From an uncultured Verrucomicrobia subdivision 3 bacterium (GTDB lineage: Bacteria; Verrucomicrobiota; Verrucomicrobiia; Limisphaerales; UBA11358), in assembly GCA_903875465.1 (NCBI GenBank), contig CAIQWB010000145.1, positions 1 through 37,191 on the forward strand: a stretch of DNA of 37,191 nucleotides, given 5' to 3'. The notes below the pieces were generated by a model. It was not told the DNA's origin and did no database searches. It saw nothing but the letters and a program-made list of their open reading frames with translations. The position numbers and the translations under genes were made by a program. This document shows, piece by piece, positions 2,246-37,191 of the stretch; position 1 is the stretch's first letter; each line of letters opens with the position of its first letter.

Positions 2246-3046
2246 TCACTCCGCGCGCCGGCTGGATTTAACCGGTCGCACCGCCTCCGCGATTTTGCCC
2301 TCGGCCGCCGTCCGGCGGGCACTCCAATCCGCCCAATCCCCCTCCCAGGTCACGCCGGTGAAGTTGGTCCGTGCCGCCGGCCAGACGCGCGTCAATTGCA
2401 ACAGCTTCTCCCGGGCGGTGGCGGAGTCATCCCATTGCAGGGCGGACTCACTCAGCACCAGCCAGTTTTCGGGAAAATCCGGGGCGGTATGGGCGGCCCG
2501 GTCCAGCCATTCGCGCGCCTTGCGCTTGCTACCAATGCTGGTGGGCCAGCCCGGCGCCTCGCGGTACAATAGCCCCAGGCTCCGCGCCGGACCGCCGTGA
2601 TCCACCGTGGGGTCCAGGTTCCAGGCGGTCTTAAACTCCGCCTCCATTTCGCGCACCAGCGCGAGGGCCCCCAACAGTTCCGTGCGGGCCAGTTGCCCCA
2701 GGTTCATGCCCAGCCAATAGTGGCCGGGGGCGGACTTGGGCTGTTCTTTGATTAACTTGCGGCAGGCCTCAATCCCCTGCACCGCCAGACTGGCGCGACT
2801 TTCATCGTTCGTCGCAAATTCGGCGAGGTTGTAGCAGGTCCGGGCAAACTGCCAGGCTAGGGGCGCGGCATTAGTGGCGGTTTGCCACTGCGCCAGCGCC
2901 TGCTGGTAAGCCGCCGCCGCCCGGCGGGCATAAGTGCCCTGGCCAATGGGTTCGGCCCGGGAGATTTGCGGCAGCAAAAGCCCCAGGCAAAGCAGAATCA
3001 GTCCGGCCCGGCCGCCCCGGCATTGCGCGGATTTACTGGCCATCAT
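2246..3046 (-). CDS. Exported TPR-like repeat protein
   Basis: A 266-residue protein with an N-terminal hydrophobic signal segment (about residues 14-31, GLILLCLGLLLP then a cleavage-like SRAEP). The rest is almost entirely helical with TPR-like periodicity: AAAAYQQALAQWQ near the start, and an FPENWLVLSESALQ repeat later. The motif GGPARSLGLLYREAPGWP in the middle resembles TPR proteins of the TRAP-transporter T-component type seen in other bacteria. It is probably secreted to the periplasm and binds a partner protein, but no partner is visible. It is divergent from the lipoprotein/hpnH-like cluster, with overlapping promoter-like sequences between them. The start could equally be the second Met (3043). 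Confidence 0.7.
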   Translation of the reverse strand: MMASKSAQCRGGRAGLILLCLGLLLPQISRAEPIGQGTYARRAAAAYQQALAQWQTATNAAPLAWQFARTCYNLAEFATNDESRASLAVQGIEACRKLIKEQPKSAPGHYWLGMNLGQLARTELLGALALVREMEAEFKTAWNLDPTVDHGGPARSLGLLYREAPGWPTSIGSKRKAREWLDRAAHTAPDFPENWLVLSESALQWDDSATAREKLLQLTRVWPAARTNFTGVTWEGDWADWSARRTAAEGKIAEAVRPVKSSRRAE

Positions 3047-3105: not shown

Positions 3106-3312
3106 GTGCGAATACTTGCAAAAATTCTGGCACTGGCGCTGGTGGTTGGTTGCGCGGTGGTTGGGGCCGGTTGTTCCGGCGTCAACACGGGCACAAGCGT
3201 ATCCCCGGCATCCTTCCTGTTGCCGGGAATCATGCGGGTTGATCCGGCTCCGGCCGGCGGTCGCCTGCTGGTCTCGCCCGAACCGGTGGTCGTAGTCGCC
3301 CAAGTCCGATAA
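3106..3312 (+). CDS. Small lipoprotein upstream of the hpnH-like gene
   Basis: A 68-residue protein with a GTG start. Residues 1-23 form a lipoprotein signal peptide: Arg and Lys near the start, a hydrophobic core ILALALVVGCAVV, then the lipobox GAGC with Cys23 as the lipid-attached residue. The mature part is about 45 residues and contains SVSPASFLLPG, then a Pro/Val-rich end. I do not know its function. It ends five bases before the HpnH-like start, so the two are almost certainly co-transcribed, and it may be a membrane-associated helper of that pathway. There is no Shine-Dalgarno; the start codon sits just after a -10 box. Confidence 0.65.
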   Translation: MRILAKILALALVVGCAVVGAGCSGVNTGTSVSPASFLLPGIMRVDPAPAGGRLLVSPEPVVVVAQVR

Positions 3313-3317
3313 TAAAT

Positions 3318-4754
3318 ATGCGTTTCCCACTCGCGCTGACGGTTAAAATCGCCAGCCACATTGTAAAACATAAAGTCCGCAAGACGCCCAAGTTCGCGAT
3401 GGTCTTGCAACTCGAACCCCTGCATACCTGCAATCTGACGTGCACCGGTTGCGGTCGTATTCGTGAATATTCCACGAATCTCAAGGACATGGTGCCCCTC
3501 GAGAAATGTCTCGCGGTGGCCAGCGAATGCGACGCCCCCATGGTCTCCATTTGCGGTGGCGAACCCCTCATTTACCCCAAAATCGAAGAGCTCGTCGCCG
3601 GTCTGCGCGAACAGGGCCGCGTGATTTATATCTGCACCAACGGCGTGTTCATGCGCAAAAAAATGCGCGATTACCTCGCCGCCATTTACACGCCCGCTGA
3701 GGAACCGAAATTGCTCCGCCTGCTCGCGGACAAGCTCATCACCGAGAAGGAGGCGGAAGCCATTCGCAACGCCAACGAGGCGGCCCGCTCCAAAGTGGTG
3801 ATCCGCCCCACGAAGTGGATGTACTGGAATGTGCACGTGGACGGTCTGGAATTTACCCATGATTTGATCGTGGAACGCGAAGGCGTCTTCAAAGAATGCG
3901 TCGAAGCCATCAAAATGGCCAAGGTCCTGGGCTATCAAGTGGCCACCAACACGACCGTCTACAAGGAAACCGATGTCCAGGAACTCGAGGAAATGTTCAA
4001 GTATTTGAGCTCCCTCGAAGTGGACGGCCACACCATTTCCCCCGGCTACGAATACGACGCCGCCAAGAAGGACATGGTCAAGCGCCTCGGCAAACAACCC
4101 GAGGATTTCTTCCTGACGCGCAAAATGACGCGGCAGAAATTCGCCCGCATTCAGGAATGGGGCGAAAAATTCACCATTTTCGGCACCCCGGTCTACCAGG
4201 AATTCCTCGCCGGCAAACGCGAACTGACCTGCACCGCCTGGGCCATCCCGACCTACAACGTCAAAGGCTGGAAAGCCCCCTGCTACCTCATGACCGATGG
4301 TCATTATGACGGTTATCAGGAGATGTTGACCAAGGTTCAGTGGGACAAATACGGCGTGGTGGACGGCGTGGCCCGTGACCCGCGTTGCGAAAACTGCATG
4401 GTGCACTGTGGCTATGATCCCAGCGGTGCCTTGGGCACCAACTATCAGAGCGGCGATAATTGGAAGAACTTCGCCTATAATTTCGGTTCCAAACCCAAGC
4501 CTTACCCGGCTTCGCAGGAACTGATGAAGATCGCTTTCAACGGCGTGAGCATCGGCAAAGGCCATCTGGCCGAGGCCAAGGCCGCCATCAACTCCCCGCG
4601 TGCCGCCATGAATGGCGCCCAGGCCGCATTCTCGCGCAAGCCGGAAGCCGAGGAGCATCATCATGAAGCCCATGCAGGCGGCTCCTGCGCCACTCCGGAC
4701 ACCTCCGAACGGGATGCCCTGCTGGCCAAAATCAAGGAAGTAAAGAAGGACTGA
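3318..4754 (+). CDS. hpnH: HpnH-like radical SAM protein (adenosylhopene transferase family)
   Basis: A 478-residue radical SAM protein. Cys38, Cys42 and Cys45 in CNLTCTGC bind the 4Fe-4S cluster, GGEP (80-83) contacts SAM, and VHVDG (172-176) continues the barrel. The C-terminal part with TCTAWAIPTYNVKGWKAPCY and CENCMVHCGYDP is the DUF3463 region typical of HpnH. HpnH adds a 5'-deoxyadenosyl radical to diploptene, the first step of the C35 hopanoid side chain. This protein differs by an extra Glu/Lys/Ala-rich stretch at about residues 117-165 and a C-terminal tail of roughly 90 residues with EEHHHEAH (445-452) and a Cys. Canonical HpnH is nearer 340-390 residues. The family is clear; the hopanoid substrate is inferred. 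A hicA-hicB pair and the HpnJ-like gene follow. Confidence 0.8.
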   Translation: MRFPLALTVKIASHIVKHKVRKTPKFAMVLQLEPLHTCNLTCTGCGRIREYSTNLKDMVPLEKCLAVASECDAPMVSICGGEPLIYPKIEELVAGLREQGRVIYICTNGVFMRKKMRDYLAAIYTPAEEPKLLRLLADKLITEKEAEAIRNANEAARSKVVIRPTKWMYWNVHVDGLEFTHDLIVEREGVFKECVEAIKMAKVLGYQVATNTTVYKETDVQELEEMFKYLSSLEVDGHTISPGYEYDAAKKDMVKRLGKQPEDFFLTRKMTRQKFARIQEWGEKFTIFGTPVYQEFLAGKRELTCTAWAIPTYNVKGWKAPCYLMTDGHYDGYQEMLTKVQWDKYGVVDGVARDPRCENCMVHCGYDPSGALGTNYQSGDNWKNFAYNFGSKPKPYPASQELMKIAFNGVSIGKGHLAEAKAAINSPRAAMNGAQAAFSRKPEAEEHHHEAHAGGSCATPDTSERDALLAKIKEVKKD

Positions 4755-4763
4755 TTTATTTGA

Positions 4764-5024
4764 ATGGGCAAGTGGAATAAATTGATCGAGAAGATCCTGC
4801 TCGGCGATTCCGATGCCAACATTGATTTTGATGACCTGTGTCACCTGTTGCGGCGGTTGGGTTTTAGCGAACGAATCAGCGGCAGCCACCACATTTTCAG
4901 CCAGCGTGGGGTTGAGCAAATTATCAACCTCCAGCCGCGGGGTTGAACGGCCAAAAATTACCAAGTTGCGCAAGTTCGCAGCTTGATTTTAAAATACCGG
5001 CTGGGAGATGCCTTGCATGAATGA
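4764..5024 (+). pseudogene. hicA: HicA-type mRNA interferase with an in-frame TGA
   Basis: Residues 1-60 match the small HicA toxin family (dsRBD-like RNase): ANIDFDDLCHLLRRLGF, then ISGSHHIF with the catalytic His (42/43), then INLQPRG. A TGA at 4944-4946 stops translation there. The same frame then continues TAKNYQVAQVRSLILKYRLG, which is the usual C-terminal end of this family, and stops at 5022-5024, overlapping the hicB start by eight bases as in intact pairs. Family members usually have a Ser or Gly at the stop position, so one base change (for example TCA to TGA) explains it. The 60-residue product keeps the histidine but lacks the last beta strand and helix. A sequencing error is the main alternative. 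Confidence 0.7.
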
Positions 5025-5232
5025 ATACAAGTACGAGTTGATTAATTACTGGAGCCAGCCGGACCAGTCATTCCTCGTGGAAGTCCCGGAATTGCCGGGC
5101 TGCTTGGCCGACGGTGCGACCCATGAAGAAGCCATTAAAAATGCCAGCGAAGTCATCCGCCTGTGGATTGAAACAGCCAAACAACTTGGCCGCGAAATCC
5201 CCCAGCCCCGCGGACGTCTGGCCTGTGCCTGA
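5017..5232 (+). CDS. hicB: HicB-type antitoxin
   Basis: A 71-residue protein with the partial RNase H-like fold of HicB antitoxins: YKYELINYWSQPDQSFLVEVPELPGCLADGATHEEAIKNASEVIRLWIETA. The strands before PELPGC and the amphipathic helix after it are typical. There is no C-terminal DNA-binding domain, as in the short HicB subfamily. I chose the ATG at 5017 because GGGAG at 5003-5007 lies nine bases upstream; the ATG at 5008 is too close to it. In intact systems HicB binds and blocks HicA. Here the toxin frame is interrupted, so HicB may be a remnant or a solo regulator. Confidence 0.8.
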   Translation: MNEYKYELINYWSQPDQSFLVEVPELPGCLADGATHEEAIKNASEVIRLWIETAKQLGREIPQPRGRLACA

Positions 5233-5264
5233 ACAACCAAATTTCAACTGATTAAAATTACGTA

Positions 5265-6737
5265 ATGAGCAAAACATTATTCCTTTCCCCTCCCAGTTTC
5301 GACGGCTTTGACGGCGGCGCGGGCGCCCGTTATCAGGCCCGGCGCGAAGTGACCAGCTATTGGTATCCCACCTGGCTGGCCCAGCCCGCCGCCCTGGTTC
5401 CGGACTCCAAATTGCTCGATTGCGCCCCGCATAATATCGGCATGGAGGAAACCCTGCGCATCGCGAAGGATTTCCAGCACGTCATTATCAATACCTCCAC
5501 GCCGTCGTTGAAAAACGATTGCAAGGTGGCCGAGGCCATCAAGGCCCAGAAGCCCGACACCAAGATCGGCTTCGTCGGTGCGCACACCATGGTGCTCCCC
5601 ACAGAAACCCTCAAAGCCTCCCCGGCCATTGATTGGGTCGGCCGCAAGGAATTTGACTTTACCTGCAAGGAAGTCGCCGAGGACCGCGATCTCGCCACCA
5701 TTAACGGCCTGTCCTACAAGGACAAGGACGGCAAGATCAAGCACAACCCCGAGCGCGAAATGATCTCGGACATGGACACCCTGCCCTGGGTGGCCGACGT
5801 CTACAAGCGGGACTTGGAGATTGAGAAGTATTTCATCGGCTACCTGATGCACCCGTACATTTCCATGTACACGGGCCGCGGTTGCCCGGCGCAATGCTCC
5901 TTCTGCCTCTGGCCCCAAACCATCGGCGGCCACAAATACCGCGTCCGTTCCCCCCAAAACGTCGTGGATGAGATGGCTTACATGAAGAAAATCTTCCCGC
6001 AAGTGAAGGAATTTTTCTTTGATGACGACACGTTCACAGCCAACCTGCCCCGTGCCCGCGAAATCGCCAAAAAACTTGGTCCACTCGGCGTGCCCTGGAG
6101 CTGCAACAGCCGCGCCAACCTGGATTACGACACCATTTCCTCCTTCAAGGACAACGGCCTGCGCCTGTTCCTTGTCGGTTACGAAAGTGGCAACGACGAC
6201 ATTTTGTCCCGCATCAAAAAGGGTGTGACCATGGATGAAATGCGCCGCTTCACCAAATCCTGTCATAAGGCCGGCGTGGTGATTCACGGTACTTTCATTC
6301 TGGGCCTGCCGGTGGAAACCGAGCAATCCATTCAGAACACCATCAACTTCGCCAAGGAACTGGACGTGTTCTCCCTGCAAGTCTCCCTGGCCGCGCCCTA
6401 CCCCGGCACGGAACTCTACGAGATGGCCCGCCAAAACGGGTGGTTCAGCAAGAAGGACAAAGGCGACATCCTGCACGGCGACGGCTTCCAACAGAGCGCC
6501 TTGGAATATCCTGGCCTGAACAAGGACAAGATTTTCGAGGAAGTGGACCGTTTTTACCGCACCTATTACCTGCGCCCTAAACCCATCCTGCGCATCATCA
6601 AGACGATGCTCGAGGACAAGGACGTCCTCGTGCGCCGCTGCCGCGAAGGCTATGAGTTCTTCACCAGCCTGAGCCAGCGCAAGCACGATCTCGCCGCCTC
6701 CAAAGCCGCCAGCGCCTCCGCTTTGGCAACCGCTTAA
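5265..6737 (+). CDS. hpnJ: HpnJ-like B12-binding radical SAM protein
   Basis: A 490-residue protein of the B12-binding radical SAM class. The N-terminal segment (LFLSPPSFDGFDGGAGARYQ, then YPTWLAQPAALV) is a strong match to HpnJ, and about residues 1-150 form the cobalamin-binding-like domain. TGRGCPAQCSFC gives the cluster cysteines Cys207, Cys211 and Cys214. GYESGNDDILSRIKKG and ILGLPVETEQ follow as in this class. HpnJ is linked to formation of the cyclitol headgroup of bacteriohopanetetrol from an amino sugar. The usual partners HpnI and HpnK are not in this window. The tail from about residue 475 is Ala/Ser-rich and probably dispensable. It follows hicB by 32 bases, and a strong terminator ends the unit. 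Confidence 0.8.
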   Translation: MSKTLFLSPPSFDGFDGGAGARYQARREVTSYWYPTWLAQPAALVPDSKLLDCAPHNIGMEETLRIAKDFQHVIINTSTPSLKNDCKVAEAIKAQKPDTKIGFVGAHTMVLPTETLKASPAIDWVGRKEFDFTCKEVAEDRDLATINGLSYKDKDGKIKHNPEREMISDMDTLPWVADVYKRDLEIEKYFIGYLMHPYISMYTGRGCPAQCSFCLWPQTIGGHKYRVRSPQNVVDEMAYMKKIFPQVKEFFFDDDTFTANLPRAREIAKKLGPLGVPWSCNSRANLDYDTISSFKDNGLRLFLVGYESGNDDILSRIKKGVTMDEMRRFTKSCHKAGVVIHGTFILGLPVETEQSIQNTINFAKELDVFSLQVSLAAPYPGTELYEMARQNGWFSKKDKGDILHGDGFQQSALEYPGLNKDKIFEEVDRFYRTYYLRPKPILRIIKTMLEDKDVLVRRCREGYEFFTSLSQRKHDLAASKAASASALATA

Positions 6738-6756
6738 GGCCCGGCAATTTCGATTC

Positions 6757-6794
6757 AAAAACCGGCGACCGCGAGGGCGGTCGCCGGTTTTTTT
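6757..6794 (+). terminator. Strong intrinsic terminator after the hpnJ-like gene
   Basis: CCGGCGACCG (6762-6771) pairs perfectly with CGGTCGCCGG (6778-6787) around a 6-base loop. Flanking A and T runs extend the stem, and seven T follow (6788-6794). It lies 20 bases after the stop codon. Confidence 0.9.
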
Positions 6795-6918: not shown

Positions 6919-8436
6919 ATGAGCACACTCACGCGCAGAAAATTCTTGGGCCAGGTGGCCGGCACCGCTGCCGCTGCCACCTTCGCTAGCCCCATGGTAA
7001 AGGCTCTGGGTCAAGCGCCAGCCGCTGGTAAGCGCCCCAATGTGCTATTTCTCATGTCCGACGACATGCGGGTGGAACTGGGCTGCTACGCCAGTCGTTT
7101 CGGCGCGGTCACCCCGAATCTGGATGCCCTGGCCAAATCTGGCGTGCGCTTCGACCGTAATTATTGCCAGTTCCCCCTGTGCAACCCTTCGCGGTCCTCC
7201 TTGCTGACCGGCCGGCCTCCCACCAAAACCGGTGTGCTGGGCAACCGCACTGCCTTCCGCACCGCGCATCCAGACTGGACCAGCCTGCCGCAACTCTTCA
7301 AAAACCACGGTTACAAATCGCTGCGCAGTGGTAAAATTTTCCACGGTGGCATTGACGATCCGGAGGCATGGGACCATGCGGAGGGTGCCACGGGCGAGGG
7401 CGATGCCAATGGCGGTGGTGCTGGCGGCAAAAATCTGGTGCTGCACGCCAAATCCGGCGGTCGCCTCCCCACCAATGTCCCCGCCGCCCTGCCCCAGGAC
7501 TTGAGCCGGGCGGCGTATTCGGACCGCATTGTGGTCTTGGATGGTAATGGCGAGGGCAATGGCGATTATCATTCTGCCGATCGGGCCATTGCGTACCTGC
7601 GACAATATAAGGATCAGCCCTTTTTCATTGCCTGCGGCATGGTCAAACCGCACAGCCCGCCTTCCGCACCGCAGCGATTTTTTGATTTGTATGATGCCAA
7701 TAAAATCGAATTGCCCCCGGATTTTGCCCCCTGGCCAACCGTGCCGCCGGGCTTTCCCAAGGCCGCCATCCGAGCGCGCAATGCCGATCTCTTCATCGGC
7801 CGCGCCGCCAGTGCGGAAGAGGCGCGCCAGGTGATTCGCGCCTACCTCGCCTCACTCTCTTGGGCGGATTGGAACCTGGGCCGGGTGATCGGGGAACTGG
7901 ACCGCCTGGGTTTGCGCGACAACACGATTATCGTCTTTCTGGCCGATCACGGCTATCACCTCGGTGAAAAGGGCAAATGGTCCAAAGCCGGTTCCCTGTT
8001 CGAATACGGTACCCGCGTGCCCTTGATCATTGACGCCCCCGGCGCCGCCGGGAATGGCCAGGCTTGCCGGCGCATTGTGCAGTCTCAGGATATCTATCGG
8101 ACGGTTACCGAACTGGCCGGCCTGCCCCTGCCGGAGGGTGTGGAAGGCCACAGTTTAGTCCCCTTGCTCAACCAACCGGCAGCGGACTGGAATCATCCCG
8201 CCTACAGCGTCTGGTGTGAGGACGGCACGTCGCTGCATGGCGTGGCGGTGCGCACTGAACAATGGCGTTTTGCCGAGTACGGGCCGGAAGGCAAGAACGG
8301 CGTTATGCTTTTGGATGCACAAGCCGATCCCCAAGAGTTAAAAAATCTCGCAGAGGAGCCGCAATTCGCTTCGGTGCGCGCTGAACTCGCTGCGCTTGTC
8401 CGAAAATACGTGGCAGACTACCGGCCAACCGGGTAA
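6919..8436 (+). CDS. Tat-exported sulfatase, iduronate-2-sulfatase-like
   Basis: A 505-residue S1-type sulfatase. TRRKFLGQ (6-13) followed by an Ala-rich hydrophobic stretch is a twin-arginine signal peptide. LFLMSDDMR holds the Asp pair for calcium. CNPSR, with Cys88, is the C-x-P-S-R site that is converted to formylglycine. GKIFHGG, MVKPHSPP and LADHGYHLGEKGKWSK are the other active-site stretches and resemble iduronate-2-sulfatase-like enzymes. It removes sulfate esters, probably from an algal or animal polysaccharide, in the periplasm or outside. The exact substrate cannot be read from the sequence. The maturase gene follows after 12 bases, so both are likely co-transcribed. Confidence 0.9.
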   Translation: MSTLTRRKFLGQVAGTAAAATFASPMVKALGQAPAAGKRPNVLFLMSDDMRVELGCYASRFGAVTPNLDALAKSGVRFDRNYCQFPLCNPSRSSLLTGRPPTKTGVLGNRTAFRTAHPDWTSLPQLFKNHGYKSLRSGKIFHGGIDDPEAWDHAEGATGEGDANGGGAGGKNLVLHAKSGGRLPTNVPAALPQDLSRAAYSDRIVVLDGNGEGNGDYHSADRAIAYLRQYKDQPFFIACGMVKPHSPPSAPQRFFDLYDANKIELPPDFAPWPTVPPGFPKAAIRARNADLFIGRAASAEEARQVIRAYLASLSWADWNLGRVIGELDRLGLRDNTIIVFLADHGYHLGEKGKWSKAGSLFEYGTRVPLIIDAPGAAGNGQACRRIVQSQDIYRTVTELAGLPLPEGVEGHSLVPLLNQPAADWNHPAYSVWCEDGTSLHGVAVRTEQWRFAEYGPEGKNGVMLLDAQADPQELKNLAEEPQFASVRAELAALVRKYVADYRPTG

Positions 8437-8448
8437 ATTCCCGCTCCG

Positions 8449-9696
8449 ATGCACCGGCCGCCTGAAATCACATCAGCCCATGGTTTCCATGTGCTGACCA
8501 AACCCATTGGGCCGATCTGCAATCTGGATTGCACCTACTGCTTTTATCTGGAGAAACAATCGCTGTATCCCACAGAAAAATCCTGGCGCATGAGCGACCC
8601 GGTGCTGGAAGCCTATATCCGCCAGTACATTCATAGCCAGCCGGGCGAGGCAGTTTATTTTGCCTGGCAGGGCGGTGAACCAACCTTGCTGGGCGTGGAA
8701 TTTTTTAAAAAGGTGGTGAGCCTCCAAAAAAAGCATTCCCACGGCAAAAACATCCACAACGCCCTGCAAACCAATGGCACGCTGCTGGACGACCGCTGGT
8801 GCGAATTTCTCGCGGCCAACCAATTTCTCGTCGGCCTCTCCATCGATGGCCCGCGCGATTTGCATGACCGTTACCGGGTGGACAAAGGTCAAAAACCGAC
8901 CTTCGATGCCGTGATGAGCGGTCTGGGATTCCTCAAGAAACACCAGGTTGAATTTAATACCCTCACGGTGGTCAACCGTGCCAACTCCTTGGAACCGCTA
9001 AAAGTCTATCGTTTCCTTAAGGAGATCGGCAGCGGTTTTCTGCAATTCATTCCGCTGGTGGAACGCCTGCCCGCCAGTCTCACTGCGGCCCCCGGGCTGA
9101 CATTTGCCGAGCCACCCGCTCCCCAGAAGCCCGCAGCCACCCCCTCCTCAGTGACCCCGGAAAGCGTGGACGCCTCACAGTACGGGGATTTTCTCTGCGC
9201 CATTTTTAATGAATGGGTCCGCCAGGACGTTGGCCAGGTCTTTGTTCAGTTATTCGATGTCGCGCTGGGCAACTGGATGGGCCTGGGCTCCTCGTTGTGC
9301 GTGTTTGCCGAAAAATGTGGCTCCGCCCTCGCCATCGAGCACAATGGGGATCTCTACAGTTGCGATCATTATGTTTATCCACAGTACCGCCTGGGCAACA
9401 TCCTCAACCAGAGCCTCGGGGCCATGGCGCATTCCCGCCAGCAATCCCAGTTCGGGCAGGACAAGCTCGCCTCACTGCCTCGGTATTGCCGCACTTGCGA
9501 GGTGCGTTTTGCCTGTCATGGAGAATGCCCCAAACATCGCTTCCTGACCACACCCGGCGGCGAACCGGGATTAAACTACCTGTGCCCGGCTTATAAACAG
9601 TTTTTCCGGCATATTGACCCCTACATGAATACCATGGGCCAGTTACTAAATGAAGGCCGCGCCGCGTCGGAAATCATGTCCCTGATCCATGCCTGA
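8449..9696 (+). CDS. Anaerobic sulfatase-maturating radical SAM enzyme
   Basis: A 415-residue radical SAM/SPASM protein. [10 protein letters not shown] gives Cys24, Cys28 and Cys31 for the SAM cluster, followed by [10 protein letters not shown]. The C-terminal SPASM cysteines include [43 protein letters not shown] and YLCPAY. This architecture is that of anSME, which oxidises the active-site Cys of sulfatases to formylglycine in the cytoplasm before export. Its target is probably the sulfatase directly upstream, whose key residue is Cys88. A linker rich in Pro/Ala (about residues 208-240) is somewhat longer than usual. Confidence 0.92.
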
Positions 9697-9743: not shown

Positions 9744-10157
9744 ATGAGCATTTTGCCCATCAGCCTGGAAAAGCAGGAGCAACTCGCCGCCCGCATGAGC
9801 GCCTTGGGCGTGCGCGAGGCAGATATTGAGGAATCCTTTGTCCGCTCCGGCGGTCATGGCGGGCAGAATGTCAATAAAGTGGCGACCTGTGTCATGCTCC
9901 TGCACCTGCCCACTCAAGTGCGGGTCAAATGCCAGACCACCCGCCAGCAAGGTCTGAACCGCCTGCTCGCCCGGCGTTTGCTATTGGACAAAATCGAAGC
10001 ACTCCAGAAAGGTTTTGTGGCGAAAGACCGGGAAGCGGCCGAAAAAATCCGCCGGCAAAAATTGCGTCGCAGCCGCCGTTCCAAGGCCAAAATGCTGGCG
10101 GGCAAAGCTCGTAACGCAACCAAAAAAGTCCTCCGCCAGCGGGTGCGTGCGGATTAA
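9744..10157 (+). CDS. GGQ-containing release-factor-like protein (ribosome rescue type)
   Basis: A 137-residue protein with only the catalytic RF-1 domain. [13 protein letters not shown] carries the GGQ motif that triggers hydrolysis of peptidyl-tRNA. The C-terminal third is very basic ([11 protein letters not shown] onward), as in ArfB/YaeJ and mitochondrial MTRFR-like proteins that rescue stalled ribosomes without recognising stop codons. I chose the ATG at 9744, since the product then starts [11 protein letters not shown]; an upstream GTG at 9714 would add ten residues. It is convergent with the ABC permease gene, and the two stop codons overlap on TTAA (10154-10157). Subfamily is uncertain. 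Confidence 0.8.
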
Positions 10158-10990
10158 GATTTAATATCCCGCACGTGAAAGGCCGTAAACCCGATGATCA
10201 GAAACGTCAGGTTAAACCCGGCCAGCACACACAATGACTGGCCCACCTTCCACCAGGGCACCGGTTGCAGCAACAGGTTCTGCCAGATATTCAGATAATA
10301 AGTGAAAAACCAGGGTTGCAACTCCTTGAAGAAGGGAATTTGCATCAGCACAAAACTCACAAAAGTAACCGACAGGGCCAGAATGGTTGCCGCCGCCGGC
10401 TTCATGTTAAAACAGGAAAACATAAAGGCCAGGCTCAATACGGTAACCGACTTGACGGCCAGAAAGACATGTGCGCCGATGTAATGCCAGATGCCATCCG
10501 CCGGCCCCAGCACGCTGAACATCTCCCCAGGAATATACACAAACAAACCGCCCCAGGAAAAAAAGCAACTGGCAAAACCGACCCCAATCCCCCCCAGCAT
10601 CAGCACCAGGAGAATGGAGAAAACCACTCCGGCCAGCCATTTGACGAACAGCAGGCGAAATCGCGATATGGGCCGTGAGAGAATCATGCGCAGAGTTCCG
10701 TCCTCCGCCTCCTTGGCCACCAGATCACCACCGATCAACGAGACATAGAGCGGCAGCAAAACATAGGCGATGGGAAACAACATTACGGTCGCCACGGTCA
10801 GGCTGGTGATATATTGCCCGGAATCATAACCATTGGTCTGGAGTTGCCGAACCATGTCATGCGAGGCGTGTGAATAGCGAAAAACCAGCACGATGATTAC
10901 TTGTGCCAGCAGCAGGGCGCCGAACCCAATGTACGTGCGCGGTTTGCCAAACAATTTCCAAAGTTCGTTGCGGAGTTGAAGAAACAACAT
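10154..10990 (-). CDS. ABC-2 type transporter permease
   Basis: A 278-residue membrane protein with about six hydrophobic segments: [81 protein letters not shown] and [39 protein letters not shown] between segments 2 and 3 is the typical cytoplasmic coupling stretch of ABC-2 permeases. It starts 26 bases after the ATPase gene and forms an exporter with it. The substrate is unknown. The gene is the last of a four-gene unit that begins with a membrane-anchored protein and a pseudopilin. Confidence 0.85.
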
Positions 10991-11016
10991 GGTGTGAGGG
11001 CGGTTATGAAACTGGA

Positions 11017-11913
11017 TTAGACCCGGCTGTCACGCATCAAAGTGAGATAAAAAGTCTCCAAGGTGGGCTCCTCGGGGGCGATCTCAAAGACCGCCATCCC
11101 CTGCTCCACCAAGAAACGCACCACCTGATCGGCACCCACGCCTTTGGCCAGTTCAATGAGACGCCCCTCGCGATCATCGGTGATCAGACCTGTGGCTCGC
11201 AGTTCGCGGGCGGCCGCCGCAAAATCACCCGCCCGCAGGCGCAACCAGTGGCGGTCAGTGCGAATATTGGTCAGCGGACCTTCAAAGACCTTGCGTCCCT
11301 GGTTGAGCACCGCGATGCCCGTGCAGAGTTGCTCGACCTCATTCAAAAGATGGGAGGAGAGTAAAATCGTGAGCCCCAATTCGTGATTCAACCGCAGGAT
11401 CGTCTGGCGCAGTTCATGGATGCCCTCGGGATCCAGTCCGTCCCCCGGCTCGTCCAGAATCAATAAATTGGGATTGGGCAGCAATGCCTGGGCGAGCGCC
11501 AGCCGTGTGCGCATGCCATGCGAATACGTGCGAACCTTGGATTGTTCCCGCCCCGTCAGGCCCACCCATTCGATCACCTCGCGGATGCGCGCCGGGGACG
11601 TGGGCCCGGTGTAATGGCTCAGAATCTCCAAGTTGCGCCAGCCACTGAGATAATCATAAAAAACCGGCGACTCAAAAATAGCCCCCACGCGCTGCAACGC
11701 TTGCTGCCGGTGCGACGTCACCTCATGCCCTCCCACGCGTACTTCGCCATGGGTGGGCCATACCTGTCCAAGCATCATCCCAATGGCCGTGCTCTTGCCG
11801 GCACCGTTATGGCCCAGGAGACCGTAGATCGCTCCCGGGGGCACGGTCAGTGTCACATCATCCACCGCCTTGCGGTGGCCAAAAATTTTCACCACATTTT
11901 TAAGTTCAATCAC
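11017..11913 (-). CDS. ABC transporter ATP-binding protein
   Basis: A 298-residue ATPase. GHNGAGKST (34-42) is Walker A, YSHGMRTRLALAQALLP is the signature loop (YSHGM instead of LSGGQ, common in the ABC-2 CcmA/NatA-type group), LLILDEP is Walker B, and LLSSHLL has the switch His. The last 90 residues form a C-terminal regulatory part as in drug/lipid exporter ATPases. It lies three bases after the pseudopilin gene and 26 before the permease, so the genes are one operon. It energises the permease; the cargo is unknown. Confidence 0.9.
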   Translation of the reverse strand: MIELKNVVKIFGHRKAVDDVTLTVPPGAIYGLLGHNGAGKSTAIGMMLGQVWPTHGEVRVGGHEVTSHRQQALQRVGAIFESPVFYDYLSGWRNLEILSHYTGPTSPARIREVIEWVGLTGREQSKVRTYSHGMRTRLALAQALLPNPNLLILDEPGDGLDPEGIHELRQTILRLNHELGLTILLSSHLLNEVEQLCTGIAVLNQGRKVFEGPLTNIRTDRHWLRLRAGDFAAAARELRATGLITDDREGRLIELAKGVGADQVVRFLVEQGMAVFEIAPEEPTLETFYLTLMRDSRV

Positions 11914-13249: not shown

Positions 13250-13747
13250 TCACTCCCCACACCAAGATGCGAGCAACTGCCCGGCATCCTCCAGCCAGGC
13301 GGTCTCCTGCAACGTGTATTCGTACTCCCGCCGTGTGCCCACCCCTAGGGTCCCAACGAGCACGCCATCCCGCCGTATGGGTACACAAAGGGCGCCACCA
13401 ACGCCAGTCTGGCGGGCGCCGGGTTTGGCCACCCCGCTGGCATCGGTTTGCAAATTGCACAGTGTGACCGGCCGGTTTTGAGCCGCCACCTGTCCGGCAA
13501 TCCCCTTTCCCACGGGAATGGTACTGACCACATCCAGCAACTGGGGCGGCAACCCTTGTTGCGCCAAAAGTTTGAGCAGCTGGCCCTTCCCATCCAGCCG
13601 GTGGATCGTTCCAGTTTCCGAGTTAAATTGGCTCAACAAGCTGCTCAGCGCGCGTGCCAGCACGCTTTCGCGGGACCCGCCGGCCTGCACCAATGCCTGG
13701 AGCTGGTCATAGATCGGCAACCGAACCGTTTCATAGGGATGGTTCAT
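13250..13747 (-). CDS. GAF domain protein
   Basis: A 165-residue protein made of one GAF domain. LVQAGGSRESVLARALSSLLSQF is the first helix, ETGTIHRLD the first strand, then VGKGIAGQVAAQNRPVTLCNL and GALCVPIRRDGVLVGTLGVGTRREYEYT as in GAF small-molecule sensors. No output domain is attached. It starts one base after the stop of crcB, so it is translationally coupled to the fluoride exporter. The ligand cannot be predicted. Such stand-alone GAF proteins sometimes act as redox or ligand sensors (fRMsr-type enzymes have Cys at set positions); only two Cys besides the last one are seen here, so I do not claim that activity. Confidence 0.8.
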   Translation of the reverse strand: MNHPYETVRLPIYDQLQALVQAGGSRESVLARALSSLLSQFNSETGTIHRLDGKGQLLKLLAQQGLPPQLLDVVSTIPVGKGIAGQVAAQNRPVTLCNLQTDASGVAKPGARQTGVGGALCVPIRRDGVLVGTLGVGTRREYEYTLQETAWLEDAGQLLASWCGE

Positions 13748-13748
13748 A

Positions 13749-14147
13749 TTAGTGTGCTTTCAGGGAATTGAGCAAACCGCCCAGCAAATAGCCCAGCCAG
13801 ACAGCAATCAAACACAGAAACACCGAGAGCATGACATAACTGCTGGCATGGAGCCAGTTGCCACTCTGAATTTGACGCCACGTTTCCAGACTGAAGGAAG
13901 AGAAAGTCGTGTACCCGCCGCAAATGCCGATCATGAAAAACTGCCGGAATGTCGGGGATGCCCCCATGTGGCCCTCCGTTTCATTCAAGGCAGCAAACAG
14001 GCCAATGACAAGGGAGCCGGACACATTAATCACGAGCGTACCCCAAGGAAACCCCGTGCCATAGCGCTCAGCAATCAGGCTGGCGAGCCAGAACCGGCCC
14101 ACACTGCCCAAGGCCCCGCCCACCGCCACGCAAAAGTACGCGAACAT
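13749..14147 (-). CDS. crcB: Fluoride exporter CrcB/Fluc
   Basis: A 132-residue membrane protein with four hydrophobic helices. GGALGSVGRFWLA near the N-terminus, INVSGSLVIGLFAAL in helix 2, and GGYTTFSSFSLET in helix 3 (the Thr/Phe/Ser signature that binds fluoride and the central sodium) are diagnostic. It acts as a dual-topology dimer exporting fluoride. A single gene of this size forms a homodimer. I looked for a crcB fluoride riboswitch in the 150 bases upstream and did not find its conserved parts. The gene is directly followed by the GAF gene. Confidence 0.92.
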   Translation of the reverse strand: MFAYFCVAVGGALGSVGRFWLASLIAERYGTGFPWGTLVINVSGSLVIGLFAALNETEGHMGASPTFRQFFMIGICGGYTTFSSFSLETWRQIQSGNWLHASSYVMLSVFLCLIAVWLGYLLGGLLNSLKAH

Positions 14148-14228
14148 GCAAAAACCTTAGCGTTAATGCCCGGGGATTTCAAACTTAACCGCGTGGCTCG
14201 GGTCCGGTGGAAAATTAAGAACGCTTAC

Positions 14229-15591
<1,363 letters not shown>

Positions 15592-37035: not shown

Positions 37036-37191
37036 TTAGGCGACGACTTCCGCCACACGACCGGCACCAATGGTGCGGCCGCCTTCGCGGATCGCGAAGC
37101 GCTGGCCTTTTTCCATGGCCACGGGCTTCTGCATTTCGATCTCCACGGAGACGTTGTCCCCGGGCATCACCATTTCCACACCGGCGGGCAG
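37036..37191 (-). CDS. tuf: Elongation factor Tu, C-terminal end (cut by the window)
   Basis: The last 51 residues of EF-Tu and the stop codon. [45 protein letters not shown] and the ending AEVVA are the standard domain III end. EF-Tu brings aminoacyl-tRNA to the ribosome. The rest of the gene lies beyond 37191. The tRNA-Trp gene follows 77 bases downstream. Confidence 0.95.

Follow-up and report, generated by a model that had tools for sequence, protein, structure and literature searches.

The hpnH and hpnJ genes carried by an uncultured Verrucomicrobia subdivision 3 bacterium are, with high confidence, parts of a C35 hopanoid pathway that is scattered over its genome. Both lie on contig CAIQWB010000145.1 of assembly GCA_903875465.1, which at 37,191 nucleotides is the whole stretch of DNA analysed (hereafter the window; contig C145 of genome G000, which is 5.3 Mb long and 96% complete). 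hpnH (3318..4754, + strand) encodes a 478-residue radical S-adenosylmethionine (SAM) protein with a DUF3463 domain, a member of a divergent adenosylhopane synthase lineage, and hpnJ (5265..6737, + strand) encodes a 490-residue radical SAM protein predicted to act in bacteriohopanetetrol cyclitol ether formation. As the original prediction had proposed, both proteins match hopanoid side-chain enzymes, each exceeding its curated NCBIfam cut-off. HpnH scores 358.6 bits against TIGR03470 (equivalog cut-off 225.05), with the match falling in two stretches split by an insert, and has Pfam matches to PF11946 and PF04055. HpnJ scores 746.4 bits against TIGR03471 (equivalog cut-off 577.6), and its B12-binding domain lies slightly below threshold (31.3 bits, cut-off 32.1). 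The pair was also said to stand outside an hpn cluster, and indeed no further hpn gene was found on the contig, HpnO not having been searched for. Two features deserve attention beyond the pathway itself, namely that HpnH belongs to a divergent, insert-bearing lineage and that lipoprotein and BstC-like genes form a conserved neighbourhood with it.

Matches to Shc, HpnI, HpnK, HpnG, the squalene/phytoene synthase family and, below its cut-off, HpnE are all found on other contigs of this genome. Shc is located on contig C139 (685 bits, cut-off 431) among genes that appear unrelated by eye. Contig C76 carries HpnD (292.4 bits, cut-off 278.6) adjoining HpnK (294.6 bits, cut-off 232.6), and 2 kb beyond them is an HpnG-like protein whose best NCBIfam match is HpnG (112 bits, cut-off 187.1). 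An HpnI homologue is found on C29, and a second SQS_PSY protein on C99 scores 88.9 bits to HpnD and 77.1 bits to HpnC (HpnC cut-off 250.45). The presence of Shc, HpnD, HpnK, the HpnI homologue and the HpnG-like protein on other contigs led us to reject a genome devoid of hopanoid genes, and it bears out the earlier suggestion that these genes are dispersed.

In such a pathway, hpnH would be the first and hpnJ the last side-chain gene. Shc would cyclise squalene to diploptene, the starting point for HpnH; HpnI would later add N-acetylglucosamine, HpnK would deacetylate it, and HpnJ would convert the resulting sugar into the cyclitol ether. These roles come from PMC12583986, which also states that hpn genes predict the lipids in Alphaproteobacteria. 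The expected product here is bacteriohopanetetrol cyclitol ether; we infer the reactions and this product from the presence and scores of the genes, their conserved residues, and the way they co-occur and are ordered. Hopanoids serve as molecular fossils, so it matters which groups can make bacteriohopanetetrol cyclitol ether, and subdivision 3 Verrucomicrobiota carry genes predicted for it. Literature titles and abstract openings, among the matches listed, included none naming a cyclitol ether in Verrucomicrobiota.

Across a set of 40 related genomes, the window's own included, HpnJ exceeds its cut-off in 30, HpnH in 35, Shc in 34, and HpnK in 27. For co-occurrence, HpnI was counted from at least 130 bits (31 genomes) and HpnK from at least 118 bits (29 genomes, two of them below cut-off), Shc fragments at contig edges (G004 and G016) were scored as present, and the p values ignore shared descent. 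HpnJ and HpnI occur together in 29 genomes, HpnJ alone in one, HpnI alone in two and neither in eight (Fisher p 5e-6). The corresponding counts for HpnJ and HpnK are 27, three, two and eight (p 8e-5). Genomes G015 and G037 have HpnI and HpnK with no HpnJ. HpnH and Shc occur together in 34 genomes, HpnH alone in one (G008), Shc alone in three and neither in two (p 0.036). Given that HpnI and HpnK co-occur with HpnJ in this set, we rejected the possibility of an HpnJ lacking the makers of its substrate.

Gene order in relatives points to a pathway split into recurring small groups. Of the 30 genomes with HpnJ, 28 have hpnH upstream of hpnJ on the same strand, no more than 3 kb away (the exceptions are G002 and G017). 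A second set of 80 named loci shares some genomes with these 30, so the two counts are not additive; in it, hpnH adjoins hpnJ in 32 of 37 Verrucomicrobiota loci and in none of 43 loci outside the phylum. Four of the five Verrucomicrobiota loci without an adjacent hpnH begin at a contig edge, the fifth (L155) does not. Conversely, HpnI and/or HpnK lie near HpnJ in 32 of the 43 outside loci, against 0/37 in Verrucomicrobiota. Of the 27 genomes whose HpnK exceeds its cut-off, 17 (the window's genome and 16 others) have an HpnG-like gene near HpnK on the same contig, and HpnD adjoins HpnK in the fetched stretches that show it. In G030, HpnK is on the hpnH–hpnJ contig itself, 9 kb away. The available part of a study of Acidobacteria likewise describes hopanoid genes that form a number of small clusters and no single island (PMC5462960), the difference from the clusters given there being that the groupings here are hpnH–hpnJ and hpnD–hpnK with an HpnG-like gene. 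Two side observations concern these groupings. In G002 (contig C15, L111) and G017 (contig C44, L112), weak HpnK-like and HpnI-like genes (118–133 bits) are found beside HpnJ and away from hpnH, as a separate cyclitol-ether-type cluster. In G001 (L062), HpnD neighbours the HpnG-like gene with no HpnK between them.

Several observations weigh against a complete C35 pathway. Judged by curated cut-offs, the gene set that the original prediction wanted sought across the genome is not fully complete, as the HpnI homologue reaches 291 bits, just below its cut-off of 310, the HpnG-like protein 112 of 187 bits, and a profile search of this genome gave no HpnC or HpnE over cut-off (best HpnE match 84 bits, cut-off 283). 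HpnI exceeds its cut-off in just three of the 40 genomes, with 28 more at 130–310 bits, and HpnG in none, though 35 have a match. G004 has HpnJ without an HpnI match; G008 has HpnH, HpnJ, HpnI and HpnK but no Shc match; and G001, G009 and G016 have HpnJ and HpnI with no HpnK match, another deacetylase possibly standing in. Tree placement among characterised enzymes, which would mark an ordinary scattered pathway, is divided: HpnJ is placed within a single Verrucomicrobiota branch of the HpnJ family, but HpnH is not among the usual HpnH proteins, whose branch holds Streptomyces, Burkholderia, Methylobacterium, Mycetohabitans and others. One could read the scattered genes, the lack of HpnC and HpnE over cut-off and the HicAB pair inserted between hpnH and hpnJ as signs of a decaying pathway that makes only C30 hopanoids or bacteriohopanetetrol. 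Such relict genes are hardly probable, given that the hpn reading frames examined (HpnH, HpnJ and others) are open without stops, that hpnH and hpnJ have stayed close together in 28 of the 30 relatives with HpnJ, and that HpnJ, in its best-matching segment, shares as much as 92% identity with named relatives.

HpnJ itself conforms to its family. Its CxxxCxxC motif (residues 207, 211 and 214) is invariant in 14 aligned sequences, and it shares 53–61% identity with fetched loci outside Verrucomicrobiota. The HpnJ tree was built by a quick method from named loci, two plasmid records and, among the HpnJ proteins of the 30 relatives, those of the window, G002 and G017 only; two of 90 rows, being under 400 amino acids, were removed. 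Two of the four outgroup rows, on branches of length 10 and 7.6, appear to be translated in the wrong frame, which makes the root worthless, and only the unrooted grouping was used. In it, a branch with support 99 sets apart 39 Verrucomicrobiota-type rows, of which 36 stem from named loci and the other three from the window, G002 and G017, so that the window lies inside the group. Compared with the characterised HpnJ (Schmerk et al., 2015, as cited in PMC12583986), the protein shares the equivalog-level score and the CxxxCxxC motif, whereas the gene here lies behind hpnH and not with hpnI and hpnK. One Verrucomicrobiota metagenome-assembled genome (MAG; L158) has a second HpnJ-like copy (13678-15114, 570 bits) in addition to the first (9995-11449); the second is nearest the first in the tree, on a long branch. 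Two MAGs titled Akkermansia muciniphila (L135 and L148) carry an hpnH–hpnJ pair of subdivision 3 type that groups with MAGs of that subdivision, and their titles are probably wrong.

HpnH, by comparison, belongs to a lineage of its own that retains the residues of the family. The CxxxCxxC motif (residues 38, 42 and 45) is present in 59 of 61 Verrucomicrobiota rows, some of which come from the same genomes, with the other two gapped, and in 11/11 comparison rows from other phyla; Cys106 is present in all 61 and all 11. Cys106, His173, Cys305, Trp308, Cys322, Cys357, Cys360 and His363 are shared by 54/54 HpnH rows of all types and by neither of two outgroup rows. The segment at the insert site is 48–57 residues long in all 61 Verrucomicrobiota rows of this set, 9 residues long in the 11 rows from other phyla, and 9–10 residues long wherever the insert is lacking. 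The insert region thus defined from alignments and a structure model (3675..3812, + strand; residues about 120–165) holds an insert of about 40 residues that is predicted to be helical. In a thinned set, the insert is present in all 17 rows of the window's lineage and in none of five Armatimonadota/Methylomirabilota-type rows, six other Verrucomicrobiota rows and 26 other rows. A phylum-wide sample gave HpnH in eight of 145 genomes. Six of these proteins are of the usual type (518–548 bits, with an unsplit match), whereas those of G000 and G052 have the insert. Of 43 HpnJ-bearing genomes outside Verrucomicrobiota, 31 were examined for HpnH; 29 have a match, 28 of which cross the insert site unsplit, and in G194 the contig ends exactly at the insert site, so its match cannot be judged.

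The first HpnH tree, which lacked Armatimonadota and Methylomirabilota rows and kept five of the 29 relative-genome rows L068-L096, places the insert lineage on one side of a branch with support 94. In a second tree, the insert lineage lies apart from the usual Verrucomicrobiota type and joins the Armatimonadota-type and Methylomirabilota rows (100/100, branch 1.06). For this tree, 21 more near-duplicate insert-type rows were dropped, seven canonical rows were replaced by copies, and fragments L257, L259 and L260 were left out. Its root is unsure owing to a very long outgroup branch (5 + 5), and the joining of the Armatimonadota lineage to that of Verrucomicrobiota, each of them long, could reflect long-branch attraction. 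The Armatimonadota-type and Methylomirabilota proteins (L253-L256 and L258) are also divergent, at 323–365 bits, and have no insert.

Despite this divergence, the insert-type HpnH most likely catalyses the same reaction as the usual enzyme, the conversion of diploptene to adenosylhopane, judging from the shared Cys106 and C-terminal cysteines together with shc beside hpnH in G052, where it follows an insert-type hpnH directly, and within the 1.5-kb flanks of three of the five Armatimonadota/Methylomirabilota-type rows. With the characterised HpnH (Sato et al., 2020, 2021, as cited in PMC12583986), the insert type has in common the CxxxCxxC motif, DUF3463, an aligned Cys106, the C-terminal cysteines and co-occurrence with Shc. 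It differs from it as a separate deep lineage, a longer protein with an insert of about 40 residues and 29–40% identity, the range found between the window's HpnH and 17 usual-type rows; searches with a proteobacterial HpnH under a strict identity limit could therefore miss the subdivision 3 enzyme. According to the same paper (PMC12583986), the configuration at C-22 depends in part on residue 106 in HpnH enzymes that have been characterised, and 22S forms are nonetheless made by some organisms whose HpnH has Cys106. Literature titles and abstract openings, among the matches listed, included none naming an HpnH insert.

It had been suggested that the pair might make a different adenosylated or rearranged lipid by a new pathway. 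That HpnH forms a deep lineage with an insert, only 29–40% identical to the usual type, would suit this idea, as would the unusual placing of hpnH beside hpnJ, a pairing seen in 0/43 loci outside Verrucomicrobiota, 32 of which have HpnI and/or HpnK there instead. We nevertheless found no support for it and consider it very unlikely, since the same genome encodes Shc, HpnK, HpnD and an HpnI homologue, HpnI and HpnK co-occur with HpnJ in relatives, and both the radical SAM and the HpnH-specific cysteines are unchanged. Moreover, G003, G006, G007 and G018 have Shc and an insert-type HpnH, but their matches to HpnJ, HpnI and HpnK are all weak and at the level of paralogues, a pattern to be expected of a plain bacteriohopanetetrol pathway.

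A model of HpnH (mean predicted local distance difference test (pLDDT) 80) has as its best Foldseek matches the radical SAM proteins SkfB, BlsE and SuiB, with template modelling (TM) scores to the model of 0.34–0.40. The insert is predicted as helices at 126–137, 143–150 and 154–158, followed by a strand at 168–173, in a block with pLDDT above 90, and in the model it separates the helix that follows the Cys106 strand from the strand after it. Loops that lead from a helix to a strand in radical SAM barrels are on the side opposite the active site; in the light of this, a docking or membrane role for the insert appears more likely than a catalytic one.

Only 5 nucleotides separate hpnH from the end of a small lipoprotein gene (3106..3312, + strand), which encodes 68 amino acids from a GTG start, with a lipobox (GCSG) recognised by eye and an SVSPxxFFLPG-type motif. 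The original prediction had this lipoprotein and a toxin-antitoxin pair as the flanks of the two genes. Both are present and the lipoprotein gene does adjoin hpnH, although it proves to be a conserved and not an incidental neighbour, and the toxin-antitoxin pair sits between hpnH and hpnJ. Of 57 distinct loci that reach at least 350 nucleotides upstream of hpnH, 53 carry the lipoprotein there (54/58 before duplicate removal), as counted with a two-round profile built from these same loci; the counted members in L087, L154 and L199 are weak (37–43 bits, without the LPG part), and the loci that lack the lipoprotein are L096, L134, L135 and L226. In 30 of the 39 loci measured, no more than 15 nucleotides separate it from the predicted start of hpnH. 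Among 39 genes extractable by motif search, differences at codon positions 1, 2 and 3 are 0.32, 0.17 and 0.61, and the gene is thus under coding constraint. The protein has no Pfam or NCBIfam match, and literature titles and abstract openings, among the matches listed, made no mention of an hpnH-linked lipoprotein.

Divergent from the hpnH unit is a gene (2246..3046, − strand) for a 266-residue tetratricopeptide repeat (TPR) protein with a signal peptide recognised by eye. It scores 101.1 bits against NF045602 (BstC), far below the cut-off of 350, for which reason we call it BstC-like and not BstC. Among the 53 distinct loci that extend at least 900 nucleotides upstream of hpnH, 39 have the gene (17 of 28 where the stretch is at least 1150), and an NCBIfam scan returned BstC for 18/18 members scanned. 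Searched against PDB, the profile of the family (A3) matched BstC (7t1s) with E 7.5e-33, the next TPR protein following at 6.6e-12. Foldseek placed 7t1s at ranks 1 and 2 for the model of the protein (better match E 1.8e-8, TM 0.56/0.63, root mean square deviation 5.2), and the generic TPR domain 7cc7 gave TM 0.60/0.68 with E 1.4e-5. A GPxRxLGxLYxxAPxWP-type segment is common to BstC and the BstC-like protein in the profile alignment. BstC of Methylococcus capsulatus, as the available part of PMC10942540 describes it, binds C-4 methylated sterols and is a proposed part of a sterol transport system. Besides the Foldseek match and the common segment, the two genes have in common that they adjoin genes for the synthesis of sterol-like lipids; in addition to its score of 101 against 350 bits, the protein here differs in being encoded beside hopanoid and not sterol genes. 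In the same account, Bst proteins given sterols and hopanoids in one mixture favoured the sterols (PMC10942540), which speaks against assuming that the BstC-like protein binds hopanoids.

The frequency of both neighbours (53/57 and 39/53 distinct loci) is not random and suggests a neighbourhood for hopanoid synthesis plus trafficking, in which the lipoprotein and BstC-like protein may handle lipid in the periplasm. In the fullest version of this proposal, which we put forward tentatively and regard as rather unlikely, BstC-like/lipoprotein–hpnH(–hpnJ) would be a dedicated hopanoid module: the insert-type HpnH, having evolved separately, would make adenosylhopane at the inner membrane, and the lipoprotein, as a member of a new family, and the BstC-type carrier would jointly move the completed hopanoid to the outer membrane. 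Subdivision 3 Verrucomicrobiota would then possess a sterol-carrier-like route for hopanoids across the periplasm. A similar, still less than even, chance attaches to the two genes being mere chance or shared-promoter-region neighbours of no hopanoid role: 14 of the 53 distinct loci lack the BstC-like gene and the G052 hpnH has neither gene beside it, TPR proteins are common and this one is well below the BstC cut-off, and neither gene was found beside a usual-type hpnH in the fetched loci. Chance fits poorly, however, with a lipoprotein so often this close to the hpnH start, or with its retention in relatives without HpnJ (G006, G007, G018 and G037). When 2.2 Mb of fetched DNA was searched with the profiles of both proteins, every match lay by hpnH, although the control is a weak one as this DNA is mostly hpn-centred. 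The linked proteins are concrete candidates for periplasmic hopanoid handling in subdivision 3.

The toxin-antitoxin pair comprises a HicA-like toxin gene (4764..4946, + strand; PF07927, 23.2 bits, below the cut-off of 27) and a HicB-like antitoxin gene (5008..5232, + strand; PF15919, 43 bits, cut-off 27). A HicAB-like pair is found between hpnH and hpnJ in only three of the 30 genomes with HpnJ (E at most 1e-4), namely G000 (window 4764-5232), G012 and G020, and we rejected it as a component of the system, regarding it as a passenger that was apparently inserted locally. The pairs in relatives are at L028:993-1458 and L008:326-1121.

Downstream of hpnJ, the window holds a sulfatase and an anaerobic sulfatase maturase (6919-9696). 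Neither was matched in those loci of relatives that were searched, several of which stop soon after hpnJ; this search left out L006-L035 and L068-L096, the latter being additionally covered by the lipoprotein and BstC-like searches. The sulfatase has a signal of the twin-arginine translocation (TAT) type and matches named sulfatases below their cut-offs, and the maturase that follows it scores 512 bits against TIGR03942 (cut-off 349).

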